Assembly: GCA_024277475.1 (NCBI GenBank)
Contig: JAJRVC010000097.1
Location: 1 to 24,588 of the forward strand
DNA from: Deltaproteobacteria bacterium
GTDB lineage: Bacteria; Desulfobacterota; Desulfobacteria; Desulfobacterales; JAFDCJ01
DNA length: 24,588 bases
Direction of reading: 5' to 3'
Shown: piece after piece, positions 2,311-24,101 of the stretch
Layout: every line of letters starts with the position of its first letter
Position numbering within the stretch: the first letter of the stretch is position 1
Program-made: the position numbers and the translations under genes
The notes under the pieces: model-generated
Told to the model about the DNA's origin: nothing
Seen by the model: only the letters and a program-made list of their open reading frames with translations
Database searches by the model: none

Positions 2311-3981
2311 CTATTCTGCCAACATCTCAATAAGATCTCCACGTCTGAAAGTAGCCGATAGCTGTTGAAGAGAAATTTCTCGTTCGCCATATAAATCCGT
2401 TAATGCTTTTGTAACGTCATTGATGGAATCCTGATAATATTCACTTTTTTTACTCTCAAAATGATCATGGATATTTTTGAAATTACGATGGTCAATATCA
2501 GAAAGTTGTACATTTTTATCTGCCAATAATTTTCGTCCAACCAACATGGAAATATAGTGGGATGCGTATGGAAGAAAAATCGGAGGATTGGCCATACTTG
2601 GGCGCTTTCGTTCGTTTTCAACATGTCTGAATATCATGGTTGCCAAAAGTGCCTGGGCAGCGTTTAGTTCGTTGAAGATAGCGTTGTAGAGCTTTCCAAA
2701 GTGTTCTTTTCGGCGAAATTTTGCCTGCTGTGGCCTTTTTCGCCAGATGGCAAGCACCGACTCGGCAACAATGGAACTGGTGATAACAGACGAACCGCCG
2801 CCACCTTCTTCGCGTTTGCGTTTGTATGTATACCCAAGATCCTTAATGCCTATTTCAAGTTGTTTCTGAATCCCGTCATTAGACCGCAGATCCCGCAAAT
2901 CCACAGGATTTTGACTGTTGGTTGCGTAAGTGATATCACGAACAAAGTCTTGATCATCCTCTGACAGTTCATAAATACGAAGCAATACATATACATTTTC
3001 AAACGATTCATTAAACAACTGTTTCTGAGAAGGATAGAGCGTTTGTTGGATGGTTTTACATGTTTGTCCACCATTAATAATCTGCATGCCTTCCAGTTTT
3101 AGTTGATAGTTTTCTCCTTGCAGCGCATTATGACGGAATTTTTTGCATATCATCGTAATTCCATTATTAAAAAAGTAGAAATCACCCCTTTTTTCTTTAT
3201 CAACAAGAGTTTCATGAATAGCCAAGTTGACGCGGTTGGAGTGTAACCCGAGATAACGTCGAATATTTCGTTCCAATAACAGATCGCTGTGTCGGTTAAA
3301 AAGTTCAGCAATCTCAGTCACAGCCACTTTCCCAACCAGAACCCGACGGAAATTGAAGTCTTCAATAACAGCTTTACCCTGCAAACGAACAGAATCATCT
3401 ACAGTTTTTTTGCGTTGCAAGACAGCGACAATACTGTCATGATTGTAATGAATCCAAATTACCTGATCATCAGCAAAGCCTGATTGATCAATCCAGTTTT
3501 GCGCCTGATCGTTCCACTTTGCACCATTATTGCAAAGAACGACGCGCACAGTTGGAATATAACCGTCACGTACAAGAGAACGAATTTCTTCTACCTTGGG
3601 AGCTATTCTGTCATTTAGCTCAATTTTTTTTGCCGGATCAAAAAGAGTTGCCACTGTGTTAACAGCCTTTTGGACTCCATTTTCCGGGAAATTAGCAACC
3701 CCTCTCAGGTCTTTGACCTTATATTTCCCCTGAAAAATTGTTACTGCAAATTCTCCGTCATCTACTTCACTGATGTGAATGCCATCTACTCCTGCGTCGT
3801 TTCCGCCTTCGGTGAGTAATTCAGCCGCTTCTTCCAAAGTAAGCTCCAAAGCGGCAGACATGCAGAGCAGAACAAATGCGGATGATTTTTTTTTGTTTTC
3901 ATCTCCATCAGGCAACAAATCAGCGTGATCTTCGATAATACCTCTTATCCTCTGATCAATGATGCTTGCGTTTATATTCAT
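2311..3981 (-). CDS. AIPR family phage-resistance protein
   Basis: Protein of 556 aa from ATG 3981. An upstream in-frame ATG at 3996 is less likely because GGAGGG lies 7 nt before 3981. The N-terminus has a restriction-endonuclease-like pattern: GVDG (D66) then IFQGK (Q84-x-K86), as in Mrr-type nucleases. The centre carries the AIPR hallmarks ERNIRRYLG (about 238-245), FFNNGITMIC (about 270-279) and IINGGQT (301-307). The family (abortive infection phage resistance) is linked to defence. A nuclease role is inferred from the motif. The gene lies behind a small HTH protein and ahead of a truncated helicase, so it may be the surviving core of a larger system. The frame is intact throughout. Confidence 0.9.
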   Translation of the reverse strand: MNINASIIDQRIRGIIEDHADLLPDGDENKKKSSAFVLLCMSAALELTLEEAAELLTEGGNDAGVDGIHISEVDDGEFAVTIFQGKYKVKDLRGVANFPENGVQKAVNTVATLFDPAKKIELNDRIAPKVEEIRSLVRDGYIPTVRVVLCNNGAKWNDQAQNWIDQSGFADDQVIWIHYNHDSIVAVLQRKKTVDDSVRLQGKAVIEDFNFRRVLVGKVAVTEIAELFNRHSDLLLERNIRRYLGLHSNRVNLAIHETLVDKEKRGDFYFFNNGITMICKKFRHNALQGENYQLKLEGMQIINGGQTCKTIQQTLYPSQKQLFNESFENVYVLLRIYELSEDDQDFVRDITYATNSQNPVDLRDLRSNDGIQKQLEIGIKDLGYTYKRKREEGGGGSSVITSSIVAESVLAIWRKRPQQAKFRRKEHFGKLYNAIFNELNAAQALLATMIFRHVENERKRPSMANPPIFLPYASHYISMLVGRKLLADKNVQLSDIDHRNFKNIHDHFESKKSEYYQDSINDVTKALTDLYGEREISLQQLSATFRRGDLIEMLAE

Positions 3982-4030
3982 AACTCGTCCCTCCATTTTC
4001 TATCTAAACTTTTGTTTATCCGCATGTTAT

Positions 4031-8047: not shown

Positions 8048-8380
8048 GTTCAGGGTTCTGGGTTCTGCGTTCAGGGTTCTGGGTTCAGGGTTCAGGGTTC
8101 TGGGTTCTGGGTTCTGGGTTCTGGGTTCAGGGTTCTGGGTTCAGGGTTCAGGGTTCTGGGTTCTGGGTTCTGGGTTCAGGGTTCTGGGTTCAGGGTTCTG
8201 GGTTCTGGGTTCTGGGTTCTGGGTTCAGGGTTCTGGGTTCTGGGTTCTGGGTTCAGGGTTCTGGGTTCTGGGTTCAGGGTTCAGGGTTCTGGGTTCTGGG
8301 TTCTGGGTTCTGGGTTCAGAGTTCTGGGTTCAGGGTTCTGGGTTCAGGGGTTCAGGGGTTCAGAGGTTCGGGGGTTTTGG
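8048..8380. repeat. Heptamer tandem array GTTC(A/T)GG, about 43 units
   Basis: From 8048 to 8348 the 7-bp unit GTTCWGG repeats in unbroken phase about 43 times; almost the only variation is A or T at position five. From 8349 the phase loosens to 8-bp units (GGTTCAGG/GGTTCAGA) ending near 8380. Because 21 bp is both three units and seven codons, a long frame with SGFWVLG/SGFWVQG repeats appears on the plus strand; I treat it as an artefact. The array lies upstream of the DUF2780 gene. Confidence 0.92.
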
Positions 8381-8422
8381 GGTTCAAGGGGTGCATTCTC
8401 GCTCCTGGACAGGATTTGTGAT
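8381..8422. repeat. Dispersed array-end unit, copy 1
   Basis: GGTTCAAGG is followed by CATTCTCG and GGATTTGTGAT. This block recurs, imperfectly but in the same order and with nearly the same spacing, at 24386-24426, again directly after TTC-type repeats. It therefore seems to be the conserved end of a dispersed element and not random flank. Confidence 0.6.
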
Positions 8423-8925: not shown

Positions 8926-9080
8926 TGGGTTCAGAGGTTCAGAGGTTCAGAGGTTCCGGGTTCTGAGTTCAGAGGTTCCGGGTTCAGAGGTTCCGGGTTC
9001 AGAGGTTCCGGGTTCAGAGGTTCCGGGTTCAGAGGTTCTGGGTTCAAAGCTTCAGGGGATAGAGGGCTCGGGTTCAGAGG
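8926..9080. repeat. Second TTC-type array with 15-bp units
   Basis: After GGTTCAGA octamers, five copies of a 15-bp unit (GTTCAGAGGTTCCGG, last copy with one change) fill 8967-9041. Degenerate units continue to about 9080. The 15-bp unit equals an 8-mer plus a 7-mer, so it is built from the same words as the array at 8048-8380. Confidence 0.88.
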
Positions 9081-9341
9081 TTCATAACAGATAAAGGTGT
9101 CAGGAATGCGGAAAATAAGAAAAGATGCAGGGCGTATGCATGCGATTTAATCTGATTTTTTTCGTACTCTTGTCCGTCCTCGTGAATCAGAATTTTATAG
9201 AAATAAGGGACGAGGACGTAGTCTGTACTCTGTAACCGCGTATGGTACTTCACGAAAATGAGCACTTTTAACGAGGACTTCGGGTTTTTAATGCCTTCTT
9301 GGTCCTTAGCCCGGAGCGGTGAACCTTGAACCTGTGAACGG
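9081..9341. repeat. Gene-free interval with dispersed repeat
   Basis: No gene is supported here. CGTCCTCGT (9175-9183) and ACGAGGACG (9210-9218) form an inverted repeat. The minus strand at 9308-9274 carries AAGAAGGCATTAAA within a 35-base core that matches 31 of 35 bases at 21879-21913. Both copies are preceded by GTTCACAGGTT. The interval reads as a decayed dispersed element downstream of smpB. Confidence 0.6.
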
Positions 9342-9803
9342 TCATCTATATTCTTTGCGCGCGCGGTCGAGATCTCTTTTTTCATCGCGGCGCCGGATGG
9401 CATCGCGTTTGTCGTATTTTCGTTTCCCTTTTGCAAGCGCCAGGGACAGTTTGACCTTGCCGCCTTTAAAATACATCTTTAAGGGAATCAGGGAATGACC
9501 TTTTTCATTCACTTTACTGTAAAGGCGTTTGATTTCCTGCCTGTGCATTAAAAGCTTTCGCTTTCTCAATGGATCGTGATTCCCATAGTAGGCAAACGGA
9601 TAGGGTCCGATGTGTATCTGATAAACAAATACTTCACCGTTTTCGATTCTGGCGTAAGAATCCTTGAGGTTGACCTTGCCGATTCTGGCTGATTTCACCT
9701 CCGTTCCCTTAAGCACCATTCCGGCTTCATATTCATCTTCGATGTGATAGTCGTATCGGGCTTTGCGGTTATGGGAAACTATTTTTATATGATTTTTATC
9801 CAT
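9342..9803 (-). CDS. smpB: SsrA-binding protein SmpB
   Basis: Protein of 153 aa, full length for the family. It starts KIVSHNRKARYDYHIEDEYE; GMVLKGTEVKSARIGKVNLK (about 28-47) and HIGPYPFAYYGNHDPLRKRK (about 64-83) are SmpB signatures of the OB-fold. The basic C-terminal tail (KRKYDKRDAIRRRDEKRDLD) inserts into the decoding centre when tmRNA enters a stalled ribosome. Its ATG overlaps the ptsI stop by one base (TAATG), so it is probably translated by coupling from the ptsH-ptsI transcript. Its RNA partner ssrA is 1.5 kb downstream on the same strand. Confidence 0.97.
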   Translation of the reverse strand: MDKNHIKIVSHNRKARYDYHIEDEYEAGMVLKGTEVKSARIGKVNLKDSYARIENGEVFVYQIHIGPYPFAYYGNHDPLRKRKLLMHRQEIKRLYSKVNEKGHSLIPLKMYFKGGKVKLSLALAKGKRKYDKRDAIRRRDEKRDLDRARKEYR

Positions 9804-11566
9804 TAGGAAAACGTCACGGCCGAAAGCGTATCGCCGAATGCATCCTTCGACAATTCGAAAACCCCCCTGGCGGTTTTCTTTTTCAGGGCTTCCCGGACGA
9901 ATGACCGGGCATCTCCGGTGTCTATGGAACGAATCACCCGTTTGATTTGCGGAATTGATTGCGGGTTCATGCTCAACTCATCCATGCCCATGCCAAGCAG
10001 CAGGGGAATGTGATGGGGCGTTGCCGCCATCTCGCCGCACATGAAAATACCGATGCCTTTGTCCCTGGATACGTCCGCCACATGCTTGATCATGCGGATA
10101 ATCGATAGATCCAAGGGTTGATAAAGATCGGCCACATGCCGATTGCCACGGTCGATTGCCAGAGCATACTGGATGAGATCGTTCGTGCCGATACTGAAAA
10201 AATCGACTTTTTCTGCTAATAAATCTGCCACAACCACTGCTGAGGGGACTTCAATCATAATCCCGATGTCAATCTCCCGGTTATAAGGCAACCCTTCTTT
10301 TTCGAGAGAATCAGCGGCTTGGTCCAAAAATTTTCCAGCTTTGCAAATCTCGTGATAGGCTGATATCATGGGAAATAATATGCGGACGGAGCCAAATGCC
10401 GCCGCCCTTAAAATCGCCCGAAGCTGGGTCTTGAATACATCCGGTTTTTTCAAACAGTACCGTATGGCGCGAAGTCCGAGAGCCGGATTGATTTCGTCGT
10501 AGCCGGTGTGGTTGGCGACCGCCTTGTCGCCATTAATGTCCAGGGTACGAATCGTGACGGATTTGGGAGCCATGACCTCGACCACATCCCGGTACTTGTC
10601 AAACAGTTCTTGCTCACTTGGGAATTCCGCACGATTCATATATTGAAATTCCGTTCGATAAAGACCGATGCCGTCCCCCCCATAATTCTTCACTGCTACA
10701 ACTTCTTCCGGGAGCTCAATGTTTGCCATTACCTCCAGTTGGACACCATCGGTAGTTTGCGCTTTAAGATGGCTCCCCCGGGCAATACCCACTTTGTAGT
10801 CATCATATTGAATTTTTCGTTCTTCATATTCGACCAGAGACTGTTCGCTCGGATTGATGACAACTTTTCCGGTACTTCCATCGACGATGATGAGATCTTC
10901 GTTTTTTATTGCCGTGGTTGCATTGAGCAGTCCGACGACGGCCGGGATTTCAAGTGCCTGGGCCATGATACCGGTGTGGGAGGTTTTTCCGCCGCGATTA
11001 GTTATAAAACCCATAATTAGTGCTATGTTTATCTGACTGGTGTCTGCCGGCGACAGATCGTCGGAAACCAGAATGACACGCTTATCAATGGCGGAGATAT
11101 CTTCGGATTCCACCCCCACCAGGTTGCGCATGATAGTGTCCGATACCTGAACCACGTCCAACGCCCGTTCTTTCAGATAGGAGTCGATCATGTTTTGAAA
11201 TATCGAATTTAAATTTGACACGACTTTTTTAAGCGCCCATTCAGCATTGACACCTTCTTTTTCTATAATTTCAATGGTTTTTCCATAGAGCAGTTTATCA
11301 TTCAGCAGCGCCAGGTGCGTTTCAAGAATATGGGCCTGCTGCAGTTCTTGCGGACTGTTTTCGATGATGGTGTGAATTTCATCCTTGGCTTTCTTTACGG
11401 CCGCCTTAAACCGATTGATTTCACTTTGTATTTTCCCCTCCTTGAGATAATACTTTTTGATGACATCCACCCCTTCTCTATCCACAAGGTAAGCCTTTCC
11501 GATGCAGATACCGGGAGATGCACTGATGCCTTTAAGCGTTGTTTCTTCAACAGCTGGTCCCGACAT
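9803..11566 (-). CDS. ptsI: Phosphoenolpyruvate-protein phosphotransferase (enzyme I)
   Basis: Cytosolic enzyme of 587 aa, normal for EI. It takes phosphate from PEP on a histidine and passes it to HPr. The active loop is NRGGKTSHTGIMAQALEIPA (about 190-209) with His197. PEP and Mg contacts include LYRTEFQYMNR, IMIEVPSAVVVADLLAEKVD and FFSIGTNDLIQYALAIDRGN; the C-terminal catalytic cysteine is in FMCGEMAATP. AGG 5 nt before ATG 11566 supports the start. It lies 6 nt after ptsH and is coupled to smpB. No sugar-specific EII lies in the window, which suggests a regulatory phosphorelay, as is common in Desulfobacterota. Confidence 0.97.
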   Translation of the reverse strand: MSGPAVEETTLKGISASPGICIGKAYLVDREGVDVIKKYYLKEGKIQSEINRFKAAVKKAKDEIHTIIENSPQELQQAHILETHLALLNDKLLYGKTIEIIEKEGVNAEWALKKVVSNLNSIFQNMIDSYLKERALDVVQVSDTIMRNLVGVESEDISAIDKRVILVSDDLSPADTSQINIALIMGFITNRGGKTSHTGIMAQALEIPAVVGLLNATTAIKNEDLIIVDGSTGKVVINPSEQSLVEYEERKIQYDDYKVGIARGSHLKAQTTDGVQLEVMANIELPEEVVAVKNYGGDGIGLYRTEFQYMNRAEFPSEQELFDKYRDVVEVMAPKSVTIRTLDINGDKAVANHTGYDEINPALGLRAIRYCLKKPDVFKTQLRAILRAAAFGSVRILFPMISAYHEICKAGKFLDQAADSLEKEGLPYNREIDIGIMIEVPSAVVVADLLAEKVDFFSIGTNDLIQYALAIDRGNRHVADLYQPLDLSIIRMIKHVADVSRDKGIGIFMCGEMAATPHHIPLLLGMGMDELSMNPQSIPQIKRVIRSIDTGDARSFVREALKKKTARGVFELSKDAFGDTLSAVTFS

Positions 11567-11572
11567 TTTTAC

Positions 11573-11851
11573 CTATTCCCCAAATCCGCTATCAACGAGA
11601 TCGACAATGGCGTTTAAGATGTTGATATCCACCCAATCTTCGATGATAATCGCTATTTTTGTCCCTTTTCCACATGCCAAGGTCAAAATATCTATAATAC
11701 TAGATGCATCGGCCATTTTTCCATCTTTCTCGAGCCAGACATCGGCTGCGCTGTTTCCGGCGATGTGGGCTATCTGAGCAGCCGAACGAGCATGCAGTCC
11801 GAGCTCGTTTTTGATTGTCGCAACTTTACGTAGCTCTTGCTTTTCCTTCAC
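11573..11851 (-). CDS. ptsH: Phosphocarrier protein HPr
   Basis: Protein of 92 aa from GTG 11851. ELGLHARSAAQIAHIA places the phospho-accepting His at residue 20. The usual proline of GLHARPA is Ser23, a variant that keeps the His and Arg. DASSIIDILTLACGKG matches the regulatory-serine region (Ser51 equals the classical Ser46), so HPr kinase control is possible although no hprK is seen. The start has only AAGG about 9 nt upstream. It is the first gene of ptsH-ptsI-smpB and is divergent from the selenoprotein-like gene at 12096. Confidence 0.93.
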   Translation of the reverse strand: MKEKQELRKVATIKNELGLHARSAAQIAHIAGNSAADVWLEKDGKMADASSIIDILTLACGKGTKIAIIIEDWVDINILNAIVDLVDSGFGE

Positions 11852-11872: not shown

Positions 11873-11902
11873 AATATTTATCAAAAGCCATATTTTTGTC
11901 AA
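11873..11902 (-). promoter_or_regulatory. Probable ptsH promoter
   Basis: TTGACA (complement of 11897-11902) is followed after 18 nt by AATATT (11873-11878). This gives a perfect -35 and a weak -10 at a sensible distance from GTG 11851. Confidence 0.5.
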
Positions 11903-11918
11903 TTCGAAATATTGGTGG

Positions 11919-12017
11919 TTTCGTAAAAAGTCAAAAAACTGCCAATTTGAAAATATCACACTTAATAGTTTCATAGGTTAGGAGATCGAAATTTGATAAT
12001 CTTGACTTTTTACGAAA
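11919..12017. repeat. 99-bp element with 16-bp terminal inverted repeats
   Basis: TTTCGTAAAAAGTCAA (11919-11934) is the exact reverse complement of TTGACTTTTTACGAAA (12002-12017). The 67 bases between them are AT-rich and non-coding. The structure is that of a miniature inverted-repeat element (MITE-like) or a very large operator, placed between two divergent transcription units. Confidence 0.7.
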
Positions 12018-12095
12018 TTGTCAATGTTGACTTGAAAGATAATGGTTGTTAAGCTTTTTGCAACCATATTTGAACTCTACCGGAGGAGATAAAAG

Positions 12096-12317
12096 ATGTT
12101 TGACAACACCCAGATATACGGAAAGGATGCTTGACCTTTTACCCGGGCAGCTCGTGAAGCGTTTGCCAGGCAGGGCCGACAGTTTGAGTATTTCAACGTT
12201 ATCAAAGATCCTGATCATCTCGAAACCATGTTGAAGTATTCTAAAGGATCACGCAAAGTTCCTATTCCGGAGGGATCATGCCGTGTTGGATTTAAAACCC
12301 GAAAAATTAACCTATGA
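12096..12317 (+). CDS. Glutaredoxin-like selenoprotein (Sec at codon 13, UGA)
   Basis: GGAGGAG (12082-12088) lies 7 nt before ATG 12096. The frame reads MFDNTQIYGKDA, then TGA (12132-12134), then PFTRAAREAFARQGRQFEYF and NVIKDPDHLETMLKYSKGSR followed by KVP. This is a thioredoxin-fold glutaredoxin in which the UGA sits where CPYT-type proteins have their N-terminal active-site cysteine. KVP matches the cis-proline loop. Read as selenocysteine (U-P-F-T), it gives a 73-aa protein. Known selenium-rich Desulfobacterota encode such Sec-containing glutaredoxin-like proteins. A stem-loop just after the UGA could be the SECIS. The C-terminus is short and overlaps the next gene by 35 nt. The alternative is a pseudogene with a Cys-to-stop change, but the intact frame, strong ribosome binding site and exact stop position argue against it. 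Confidence 0.78.
12143..12170 (+). promoter_or_regulatory. Candidate SECIS stem-loop
   Basis: Beginning 9 nt after the UGA, CC (12143-12144) pairs with GG (12169-12170), GGCA (12146-12149) with TGCC (12164-12167), and GCT (12150-12152) with AGC (12158-12160). The apical loop is CGUGA, with a G-A mismatch and a 3-nt bulge. Bacterial SECIS elements sit immediately 3' of the UGA and carry GU in the apical loop, which this one does at about +20. Folding was done by eye. Confidence 0.5.
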
Positions 12318-13878
12318 GGAACTGGAGCTCCACACCGGCGAGCTTGAAAGAGAAATTTATAAAACCAAACAGGCAGAAGAATCGTTACGGCGGCAAAACG
12401 AGTATCTGACTGCACTGCATGAAACGTCCCTTGGCCTGATTGACCATTTAGACAAAGAAAAATTGCTGGAAACGATACTGCAGCGTGCGGCCATGCTGAC
12501 CGGTACTGAACACGGTTATATTTATTTGCTCGAACCCGGTGAAAGTGAAATGCAAATGCAGGTCGGTATGGGTTTTTTTAAAAGTCAACTGGGCCGCCGG
12601 GTGAAGCTGGGGGAGGGAATGGGGGGCAGTGTCTGGAAATCTGAACATCCTCTGCTGGTGGCCGATTATCATTCCTGGGATGGGCGCCTCAATGATAAAT
12701 CATTGGATGATCTTCATTCGGTAGTCGGGATTCCTTTGAAAGATCGCTACCGGGTGCACGGCGTCATCGGGCTTGCCAGTGTTAATCCCGATAGACGCTT
12801 TACAGAGGAAGATAACGCCATTTTGGGCCGTTTTGCCGAACTGGCGCTGGTGGCCCTGGACAAGGGAAAACTTTATGCTGATGTGCGGCGGGAACTGATG
12901 GAACGAAAACGGACGGCGGCAATTCTGAGGAAAAGCGAGCAACGCTACCGCCTGCTGCTGGAGTCGTCTCCCGACCCTATTGTTCTTTACAACATTCAGG
13001 GCAAGGCGACCTATGTGAATCCTGCTTTCGAACAAACGTTCGGATTTTCAAGTAAGGATTTGCTGGGCAAACAAATTGATTTCGTCCCTCCGGAAAACTG
13101 GCCTGAGACCAAAGTCGCTATCGGGCGAATGCTCAGCGGCCAAAAAATCCAGCTGTTTGAAACCAGACGCAGAACCAAAAACGGTCGAGTGCTGGCTGTT
13201 CAGCTCAGTTCGACCCTTTATTATGACCGAAACGATGAGCCTGCCGGCAACATCGTTACCCTCCGCGACATCAGTGCGCAGAAAAAGACTGAAATAGAGC
13301 TGAGAAAATATCACGATCATCTCGAGGAACTGGTGGCGGAACGAACCGCCGAACTGGCGAAAATCAACGCGCGGCTAGAGCAGGAAATTGAAGAGCGCAT
13401 CCGGGCTGAAGAAGCCTTGCGCAAACAGGGAAATAAACTTAAAGCCCAATCTCACCACCTGGCAGAAGTCAACATCGCCTTAAAAGTGCTGTTGAAACAA
13501 AGAGAAGATGATAAAAAAGAACTGGGTGAGAATGTATTGTCCAATGTGAAGGAGTTGATCAGCCCCTATCTTGTAAGATTGAAAAAAAGCCGGCTGAGCA
13601 CCCATCAGCAAACGCTGGTCAGTATTTTGGAATCCAATCTGAATAACATGACATCTCCTTTTATCAGCAAACTGTCTTCGAAATTTTTTGGTCTCACGCC
13701 CATGGAAATCCGGGTTGCCAATTTGGTCAGGGAAGGACAAACCAACAAAGAGATTGCTGAGATTCTGTGCTTGTCGAAAAATACCATTATGTTTCACCGG
13801 TATAATATCCGCTGTAAGCTAGGTCTGAAAAATAAAAAGATCAACCTTAGATCCCACCTGTTGTCTAAAGACATATAG
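12283..13878 (+). CDS. GAF-PAS-LuxR one-component transcription regulator
   Basis: Protein of 531 aa from GTG 12283, with GGAGGG 8 nt upstream. Order: helical N-terminus (about 8-45), GAF domain (about 47-195, including LGEGMGGSVWKS and VVGIPLKDRYRVHGVIGLA), PAS domain (about 218-335, ILLxNxxG-like core with YVNPAFEQTFGFSSKDLLGK), long coiled coil (about 338-415) and a C-terminal LuxR-type HTH (about 471-528: LTPMEIRVANLVREGQTNKE, IAEILCLSKNTIMFHRYNIR). There is no histidine-kinase or receiver domain, so a ligand or redox signal probably acts directly on DNA binding. It overlaps the selenoprotein-like gene by 35 nt. A palindrome covers its stop codon, with a promoter for the liv operon just beyond, so autoregulation and control of liv are likely. 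Confidence 0.88.
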   Translation: MLDLKPEKLTYEELELHTGELEREIYKTKQAEESLRRQNEYLTALHETSLGLIDHLDKEKLLETILQRAAMLTGTEHGYIYLLEPGESEMQMQVGMGFFKSQLGRRVKLGEGMGGSVWKSEHPLLVADYHSWDGRLNDKSLDDLHSVVGIPLKDRYRVHGVIGLASVNPDRRFTEEDNAILGRFAELALVALDKGKLYADVRRELMERKRTAAILRKSEQRYRLLLESSPDPIVLYNIQGKATYVNPAFEQTFGFSSKDLLGKQIDFVPPENWPETKVAIGRMLSGQKIQLFETRRRTKNGRVLAVQLSSTLYYDRNDEPAGNIVTLRDISAQKKTEIELRKYHDHLEELVAERTAELAKINARLEQEIEERIRAEEALRKQGNKLKAQSHHLAEVNIALKVLLKQREDDKKELGENVLSNVKELISPYLVRLKKSRLSTHQQTLVSILESNLNNMTSPFISKLSSKFFGLTPMEIRVANLVREGQTNKEIAEILCLSKNTIMFHRYNIRCKLGLKNKKINLRSHLLSKDI

Positions 13879-23540: not shown

Positions 23541-23798
23541 TTATTGGGTTGCCCGCAATTCTTCCCTGATAACCCGGCGCAAAACTTCCTCATTCAGCGG
23601 TACCTGCTGTTTGTTGAGATATTCCCTAAGCGCGTTATTGATTATGGTTTGATAATTGCCACCCCCTGCCTTTTGTACCTGCCCTTTAAAATAATCAATA
23701 ATATCCGCGTCAAGCCGGATTGTAATACGTATTTTATTGGGATCAGGGGGAATTACCGGTCCACGCCTACCCTTACTGAAGTCGTATTCATCTCTCAT
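23541..23798 (-). CDS. brnA: BrnA antitoxin
   Basis: Protein of 85 aa from ATG 23798; GAGG lies about 9 nt upstream and the start is 4 nt after the brnT stop. A longer start at 23828 would overlap brnT and lacks support. The sequence KIRITIRLDADIIDYFKGQV then GGGNYQTIINNALREYLNKQ is the BrnA-type ribbon-helix-helix: a beta-strand with alternating residues, then two helices. It binds the BrnT toxin and represses the shared promoter, whose repeated TGTACA words are the likely operator. Confidence 0.93.
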   Translation of the reverse strand: MRDEYDFSKGRRGPVIPPDPNKIRITIRLDADIIDYFKGQVQKAGGGNYQTIINNALREYLNKQQVPLNEEVLRRVIREELRATQ

Positions 23799-23802
23799 AC
23801 TT

Positions 23803-24066
23803 TTAATCCTCGTATTGTTTACGTTCACGTTTCGTCGCTTTGCGAGCGGATATTAAGCGAATGATATCACCTCGCCACGTATAGGTGACAACAAGAATCC
23901 GACCGAAAGCATCCATGGCGATAGAAATGAACCTTTGTTCGTCATAGTCGGGATCATCTATGGTAACCGCATTTAAGTCATCAAAAACCATAACTGCGTC
24001 GGCAAAATCAATACCATGTTTCTCTATATTGGTGATTGCTTTGTTGGGATCCCATTCATAGCTCAT
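23803..24066 (-). CDS. brnT: BrnT toxin
   Basis: Protein of 87 aa from ATG 24066 (SYEWDPNKAITNIEKHGIDF at the N-terminus). An in-frame ATG at 24096 is rejected because it falls inside the promoter. The family pattern is complete: DPxKAxxNxxKHGIDFADA, DEQRFISIAMDAFGRILVVT and IRLISARKATKRERKQYE, with the RNase-type His, Arg and Lys residues kept. It is a ribosome-independent RNase related in fold to RelE. Toxin-first gene order with BrnA 4 nt downstream is standard. No ribosome binding site precedes the ATG. Confidence 0.94.
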   Translation of the reverse strand: MSYEWDPNKAITNIEKHGIDFADAVMVFDDLNAVTIDDPDYDEQRFISIAMDAFGRILVVTYTWRGDIIRLISARKATKRERKQYED

Positions 24067-24072
24067 TAAGGT

Positions 24073-24101
24073 ATTATATGTACAAACTGTGTACAAGGCA
24101 A
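24073..24101 (-). promoter_or_regulatory. brnTA promoter with TGTACA operator
   Basis: TTGCCT (complement of 24096-24101), a 17-nt spacer and a perfect TATAAT (24073-24078). The spacer is bounded by two TGTACA palindromes (24079-24084 and 24090-24095), a good target for the BrnA RHH dimer. The predicted start at about 24066 coincides with the brnT ATG. Confidence 0.75.

Follow-up and report, generated by a model that had tools for sequence, protein, structure and literature searches.

The closest described relatives of the gene reported here are the UXX-star selenoproteins. Table 1 of PMC13188914 lists 'Distant Grx-like protein 1 (UXX-star selenoprotein family 1)' with NCBIfam model NF041114, the motif UxxT, and two selenocysteine (Sec) residues. 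An entry in PMC9312934 likewise gives 'Distant Grx-like protein 1' with the motif UxxT, and the words 'distant Grx' do not occur in the main text of PMC2398784. Among the papers listed by literature searches, none deals with a truncated UXX-star gene. An intact gene of family 1 would encode a small protein of glutaredoxin fold, with one Sec in the UxxT site and a second Sec after which only two residues precede the stop codon.

The window, the whole stretch of 24,588 nt (contig JAJRVC010000097.1 of the deltaproteobacterial assembly GCA_024277475.1), contains a gene, here called uxx, of this already catalogued family (see the table). Its read-through product matched NF041114 with 76.9 bits (E=1.1e-21; cut-off 72) over residues 6-67. 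The product also has the Pfam Glutaredoxin domain (PF00462; 38.2 bits, gathering cut-off 22.9), as do Glutaredoxin 3, NrdH, and YruB-type proteins (TIGR02181, TIGR02194, and TIGR02196). Unlike those proteins, it has a UxxT rather than a CxxC-type site, and it scored 24.4-33.3 bits with their models versus cut-offs of 85.75-90 (33.3 bits with Glutaredoxin 3, cut-off 90). The related models for UXX-star families 2 and 3 (NF041211 and NF047338) gave matches of 30.7 and 34.3 bits, far under their cut-offs of 100 and 97. As in family 1, the UxxT site begins with the Sec codon (UGA13, then PFT) and the neighboring genes are those of the related loci. Unlike family 1, the window gene has one Sec codon, not two, and it lacks both the C-terminal U-x-x-stop, which all 18 of the relatives have, and the hairpin after it. 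With the Uxx_star subfamily model NF041212 it scored 59.6 bits, under the cut-off of 66, compared with 85.9 bits for the intact relative L001. Because the second Sec is missing, the window gene is filed as a truncated derivative of NF041114 rather than as a full member.

The first-pass annotation had proposed a hidden gene for a glutaredoxin-like selenoprotein in which Sec takes the place of the first active-site Cys, and the family match bears this out. The GGAGGAG, the ATG, the one UGA in GKDA-U-PFT, and the KVP on which the proposal relied are all present where it had placed them, and the comparison with glutaredoxins that it recommended gave the Pfam match. The frame starts with ATG at 12096, has codon 13 as its sole in-frame TGA before the terminal stop (TGA, 12315-12317, after 73 codons), and reads KVP at codons 54-56. 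uxx is a real selenoprotein gene, and one that is easily overlooked. What did not hold was the intactness ascribed to the rest of the glutaredoxin-like body: the codons for residues 57-73 belong to the leader and start of the adjoining regulator gene, and the second UGA of the family is absent. It had escaped the annotation that the family carries two Sec residues and that a deletion has deprived this copy of its C-terminal part, including the second Sec codon, and of the second SECIS-like hairpin.

Coordinates of the features of the uxx locus (positions in the window unless another locus is named)
Feature	Position	Strand	Remarks
smpB	9342-9803		next after ptsI
ptsI	9803-11566		next after HPr
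HPr gene, divergent neighbor	11573..11851	-	within about 420 nt of uxx in 15/18 loci
GGAGGAG, uxx ribosome-binding site	12082..12088	+	read from sequence; GAGGAGG at same place in L001
3'-truncated UXX-star family 1 gene (uxx)	12096..12317	+	UGA13 probably read as Sec; 73 codons + stop
In-frame UGA, codon 13, Sec position of UxxT site	12132..12134	+	TGC in L005, TGA in the other 17 related loci
Putative SECIS hairpin for codon 13	12146..12167	+	5-nt loop CGUGA, G at loop position 2; silent-site bias
Deletion junction	12259..12262	+	end of uxx homology overlaps start of regulator-leader homology
Unrelated 17-codon tail of uxx frame	12264..12314	+	read from leader and start of next gene
GGAGGG, regulator ribosome-binding site	12269..12274	+	GGAGGG also in L003 leader
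GAF/PAS/LuxR-type regulator gene, GTG start	12283..13878	+	orthologues downstream of uxx in 9/18 loci
Second-UGA hairpin, example	L004 1610-1656		just 3' of uxx stop codon

A scan of genome contigs yielded 18 related loci (L001-L018) from Desulfobacterales, Desulfobacteraceae, Desulfosarcina, Deltaproteobacteria, and Olavius-associated Delta symbionts. The first-pass annotation had regarded random stops or frameshifts in close relatives as the sign of a spurious gene; instead, codon 13 is TGA in 17 of the loci and TGC (Cys) in L005. Near the C-terminal end, a second UGA occurs in all 18 loci, with two more codons before the stop. That stop is TAA or TAG in 11 of the loci and is itself TGA in the other 7, where by analogy with the 11 it is taken to end the frame. 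A protein search found 11 relatives, every one of which has W at the position of UGA13 and a second W near the C-terminus, presumably UGA codons that gene callers rendered as Trp.

Just 3' of the second UGA, past the stop codon, the 18 loci can form a hairpin of eight pairs, seven of which have changed on both sides. Pairing was found in 91.4% of 139 cells, a value equaled by 0 of 500 shuffles, and slid versions reached at most 52.5%; L018 fits the hairpin poorly. This hairpin is probably the SECIS of the second Sec. Across L001-L018 it is a strongly covarying bacterial SECIS-like element that lies outside the coding region.

The flanking DNA shows how the window gene differs from these relatives. 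Window DNA matches uxx of L001 at 83% as far as 12262, within Pro56, and from 12259 onward it matches the leader and regulator gene of L003 at 73%; from 12269 it also matches the leader and start of the regulator gene of L009 at 76%. What has been lost is therefore the 3' end of uxx together with the second UGA, the hairpin that belongs to it, and any intervening spacer. The 4-nt overlap of the two matches suggests a deletion via short microhomology. The tail of the window product contributes 4.4 bits to the NF041114 score, versus 33.2 bits for the tail of L001, and residues 1-56 alone score 72.5 bits (cut-off 72). Family scoring on its own would thus accept the window gene as a good member, and it is the comparison of flanking DNA that reveals the cut. 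We considered that the tail might be a genuine C-terminus that has diverged with small indels and rejected this, as the same bases align to the regulator leader and start of both L003 and L009 and add only 4.4 bits. A C-terminal likeness of this kind ('KVP...EG...GF') can arise by accident at a deletion junction.

A junction of this sort could also be produced if the contig misjoined uxx to the regulator leader and the true genome had an intact gene. The junction was found in no other assembly in a DNA search of 389 genomes of the order plus a plasmid collection, which would fit such an artifact; the plasmid search with window DNA gave no match. However, the two matches share only 4 nt at the junction, and so short an overlap is insufficient for assembly by k-mer overlap. 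The reading frame and ribosome-binding site of the regulator gene are also intact across the junction. A misassembly is considered quite unlikely.

The putative SECIS hairpin for codon 13 was kept on the near side of the junction. It lies 18 nt 3' of UGA13 and, when folded with the upper-stem pairs enforced, has a loop whose second base is G and whose third is U, in agreement with the bSECIS rule as given in PMC13188914. Its folding energy was no better than that of shuffles in five of the six sequences folded (window z 0.74), and in L005, which has Cys at codon 13, it was weakly better (z -1.11). The case for a SECIS at codon 13 therefore rests on silent sites, which are held 3' of UGA13: Ala19 is GCT in 19 and Arg20 is CGT in 17 of 22 sequences, these being the 22 of 35 that the search pattern did not miss, compared with a background use of 12% for each codon in the long frames of the 18 loci. 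No probability is attached to this bias, because the sequences are related to one another. An Rfam search of 11880-12480 returned only matches below gathering scores.

The folding energies would be in line with the idea that UGA13 is an ordinary stop and the likeness to glutaredoxins accidental, or that the codon is a plain nonsense mutation. Against this idea are the UGA shared by 17 of 18 loci at codon 13, with Cys in the remaining one, the silent sites held directly 3' of it, and the finding of selB above cut-off in the genomes of 16 of the 18 related loci. It is almost inconceivable as an explanation, and a chance open reading frame was rejected on the NF041114 score together with the same-codon UGA in relatives. 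The two exceptions in the selB search were genome G009, which has two adjacent pieces, and genome G016, which has weak matches only; 2 of 14 control genomes also passed. The other refuting sign named by the first-pass annotation, a lack of sel genes, was checked in the relatives through selB and did not refute the proposal. tRNA-Sec was above the gathering score in 12 of the 18 relatives' genomes, 11 of them with at least 70 bits. Because 5 of the 14 controls also passed this search, scores near 47 prove little.

Whether the truncated gene still makes a working protein was weighed from the predicted fold and from the pattern of substitution. The AlphaFold model of the window product had a mean pLDDT of 59.0 and a pTM of 0.41, compared with 87.7 and 0.71 for L001 when both were modeled from one set of 19 proteins, and block means of pLDDT from residue 51 on were 43, 44, and 28; the prediction depends on an alignment that has 19 rows and contains no relatives of the tail. 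The L001 model matches glutaredoxins in the PDB, the best being 3ic4 (TM 0.80 by query length). The kept codons of the window gene look constrained. Their dN/dS relative to L001 (0.12/0.69) is near that of intact pairs such as L001 and L002 (0.162/1.14), and the window agrees with 21 other sequences at all 12 invariant and all 22 well-conserved columns. Relative-rate counts, which are small numbers, lean the opposite way: unique changes were more numerous in the window in nine of 12 comparisons and equal in three.

The genomes of the wider order provide a further comparison. The order of genome G003 was sampled with 389 genomes, and 185 of these have uxx matches. Among the best 150 matches, 132 have two TGA codons, 17 have one, and 1 has none; among the 40 matches in the remaining 36 of the 185 genomes, 6 have two, 30 have one, and 4 have none. 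The best matches extend to at least position 69 of the 75 profile positions in 181 of the 185 genomes and fall short in four. One short match (G307) is cut by contig ends. As judged by translation, the uxx copy in contig C29 of G115 (L059) is frameshifted; the one in G303 (C186, 7158-7265; L060) has lost an internal segment in frame but retains both UGAs; and in G060 (C213; L061) a remnant without Sec codons is left. None of these four shows the junction of the window among the best matches of the 185 genomes. The notion that a broken copy is unique to the window was rejected, as G115, G303, and G060 are also broken among those best matches, and their broken copies slightly favor decay of the window copy.

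It is possible to view the window gene as a working, shortened variant that keeps the UxxT site and the cis-Pro, has a replaced tail, and dispenses with the C-terminal Sec. As would be expected, the gene retains its frame, UGA13 with its hairpin, and every well-conserved column; its dN/dS relative to L001 is 0.12/0.69, and matches with one TGA do occur elsewhere in the order (17 in the best 150 and 30 of the 40 in the remaining 36 genomes). However, those one-TGA matches retain the C-terminal part, short matches excepted. The window tail derives from the leader of another gene, with a predicted pLDDT of 28-44, and the unique changes are in excess in nine of the 12 comparisons and equal in the other three. 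This alternative is regarded as unlikely, though not far-fetched.

The explanation that we favor, with a probability of roughly 0.7, is that uxx is a known UXX-star family 1 gene that was recently truncated by a deletion, is probably decaying, and has kept its first Sec codon. On this view the deletion fused uxx at codon 56 to the leader of the regulator gene, and the C-terminal strands were lost along with the second Sec codon and its 3' hairpin. UGA13 could probably still be read as Sec because its SECIS-like hairpin was kept. The product would be 73 residues long with an unrelated 17-residue tail and would be unlikely to fold, and for this reason we take the gene to be a recently broken copy rather than a working variant with one Sec. 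Loss of function and a recent date for the deletion are both probable on these grounds. The apparent constraint on the kept codons and the retention of UGA13 and its hairpin count against decay, as does the derivation of the fold prediction from a 19-row alignment.

The neighborhood of uxx is that of the related loci. A divergent HPr gene lies upstream in 15 of the 18, with ptsI next in 14 of those 15 and smpB found past ptsI in 10. The count of nine loci with the regulator gene downstream includes no call for L002, the contig of which is too short to show it. In those nine loci the gap between uxx and the regulator gene is 32-1373 nt (L001, 1373; L003, 569; L008, 63; L009, 77), the values for L004, L013, and L015 being extrapolated from partial matches. 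In L011 (8229-8689) there is no GAF/PAS/LuxR gene between uxx and livG, and a start-like remnant, LDLKTDKL, is left. The ptsI of the window (9803-11566) is nearest to that of L003 (87.9%, versus 74.6% for L001), and the uxx codons (12096-12263) are nearest to those of L001; a mixed ancestry of the window locus is possible. Between HPr and uxx the window has a 108-nt insert (11915-12022). Its ends are inverted: TTTCGTAAAAAGTCAA occupies 11919-11934 and recurs in reverse at 12002-12017. L001 has the site without the insert, with a possible 7-nt target duplication (AATATTG/AATGTTG). Genomes of the order contain similar stretches at many further sites, and the insert is a MITE-like element.

The window also contains tandem arrays at 8048-8386 and 8936-9083, with 7/21-base and 15-base units, respectively. 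An AIPR-domain protein is encoded at 2311-3996 on the minus strand (179.4 bits; 164.7 bits with an AbiU anti-phage model), and a toxin-antitoxin pair of the BrnT/BrnA type is encoded at 23541-24096 on the minus strand (104.3 and 45.9 bits).

In the window, the uxx frame and the regulator gene overlap by 35 nt. Ribosomes that decode UGA13 could in principle reach the GTG of the regulator gene and restart there, and stopping at UGA13 when Sec is scarce would prevent this, which would make the arrangement a selenium-dependent switch created by the deletion. We consider such a switch very unlikely. If it were true, the broken selenoprotein frame would act, at the level of translation, as the selenium sensor of the regulator downstream of it.

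Reading of the raw sequence can find a UGA-containing gene that a standard list of open reading frames cuts into pieces. If the truncated copy is active, it would be a natural test for the role of the C-terminal Sec in this uncharacterized family.
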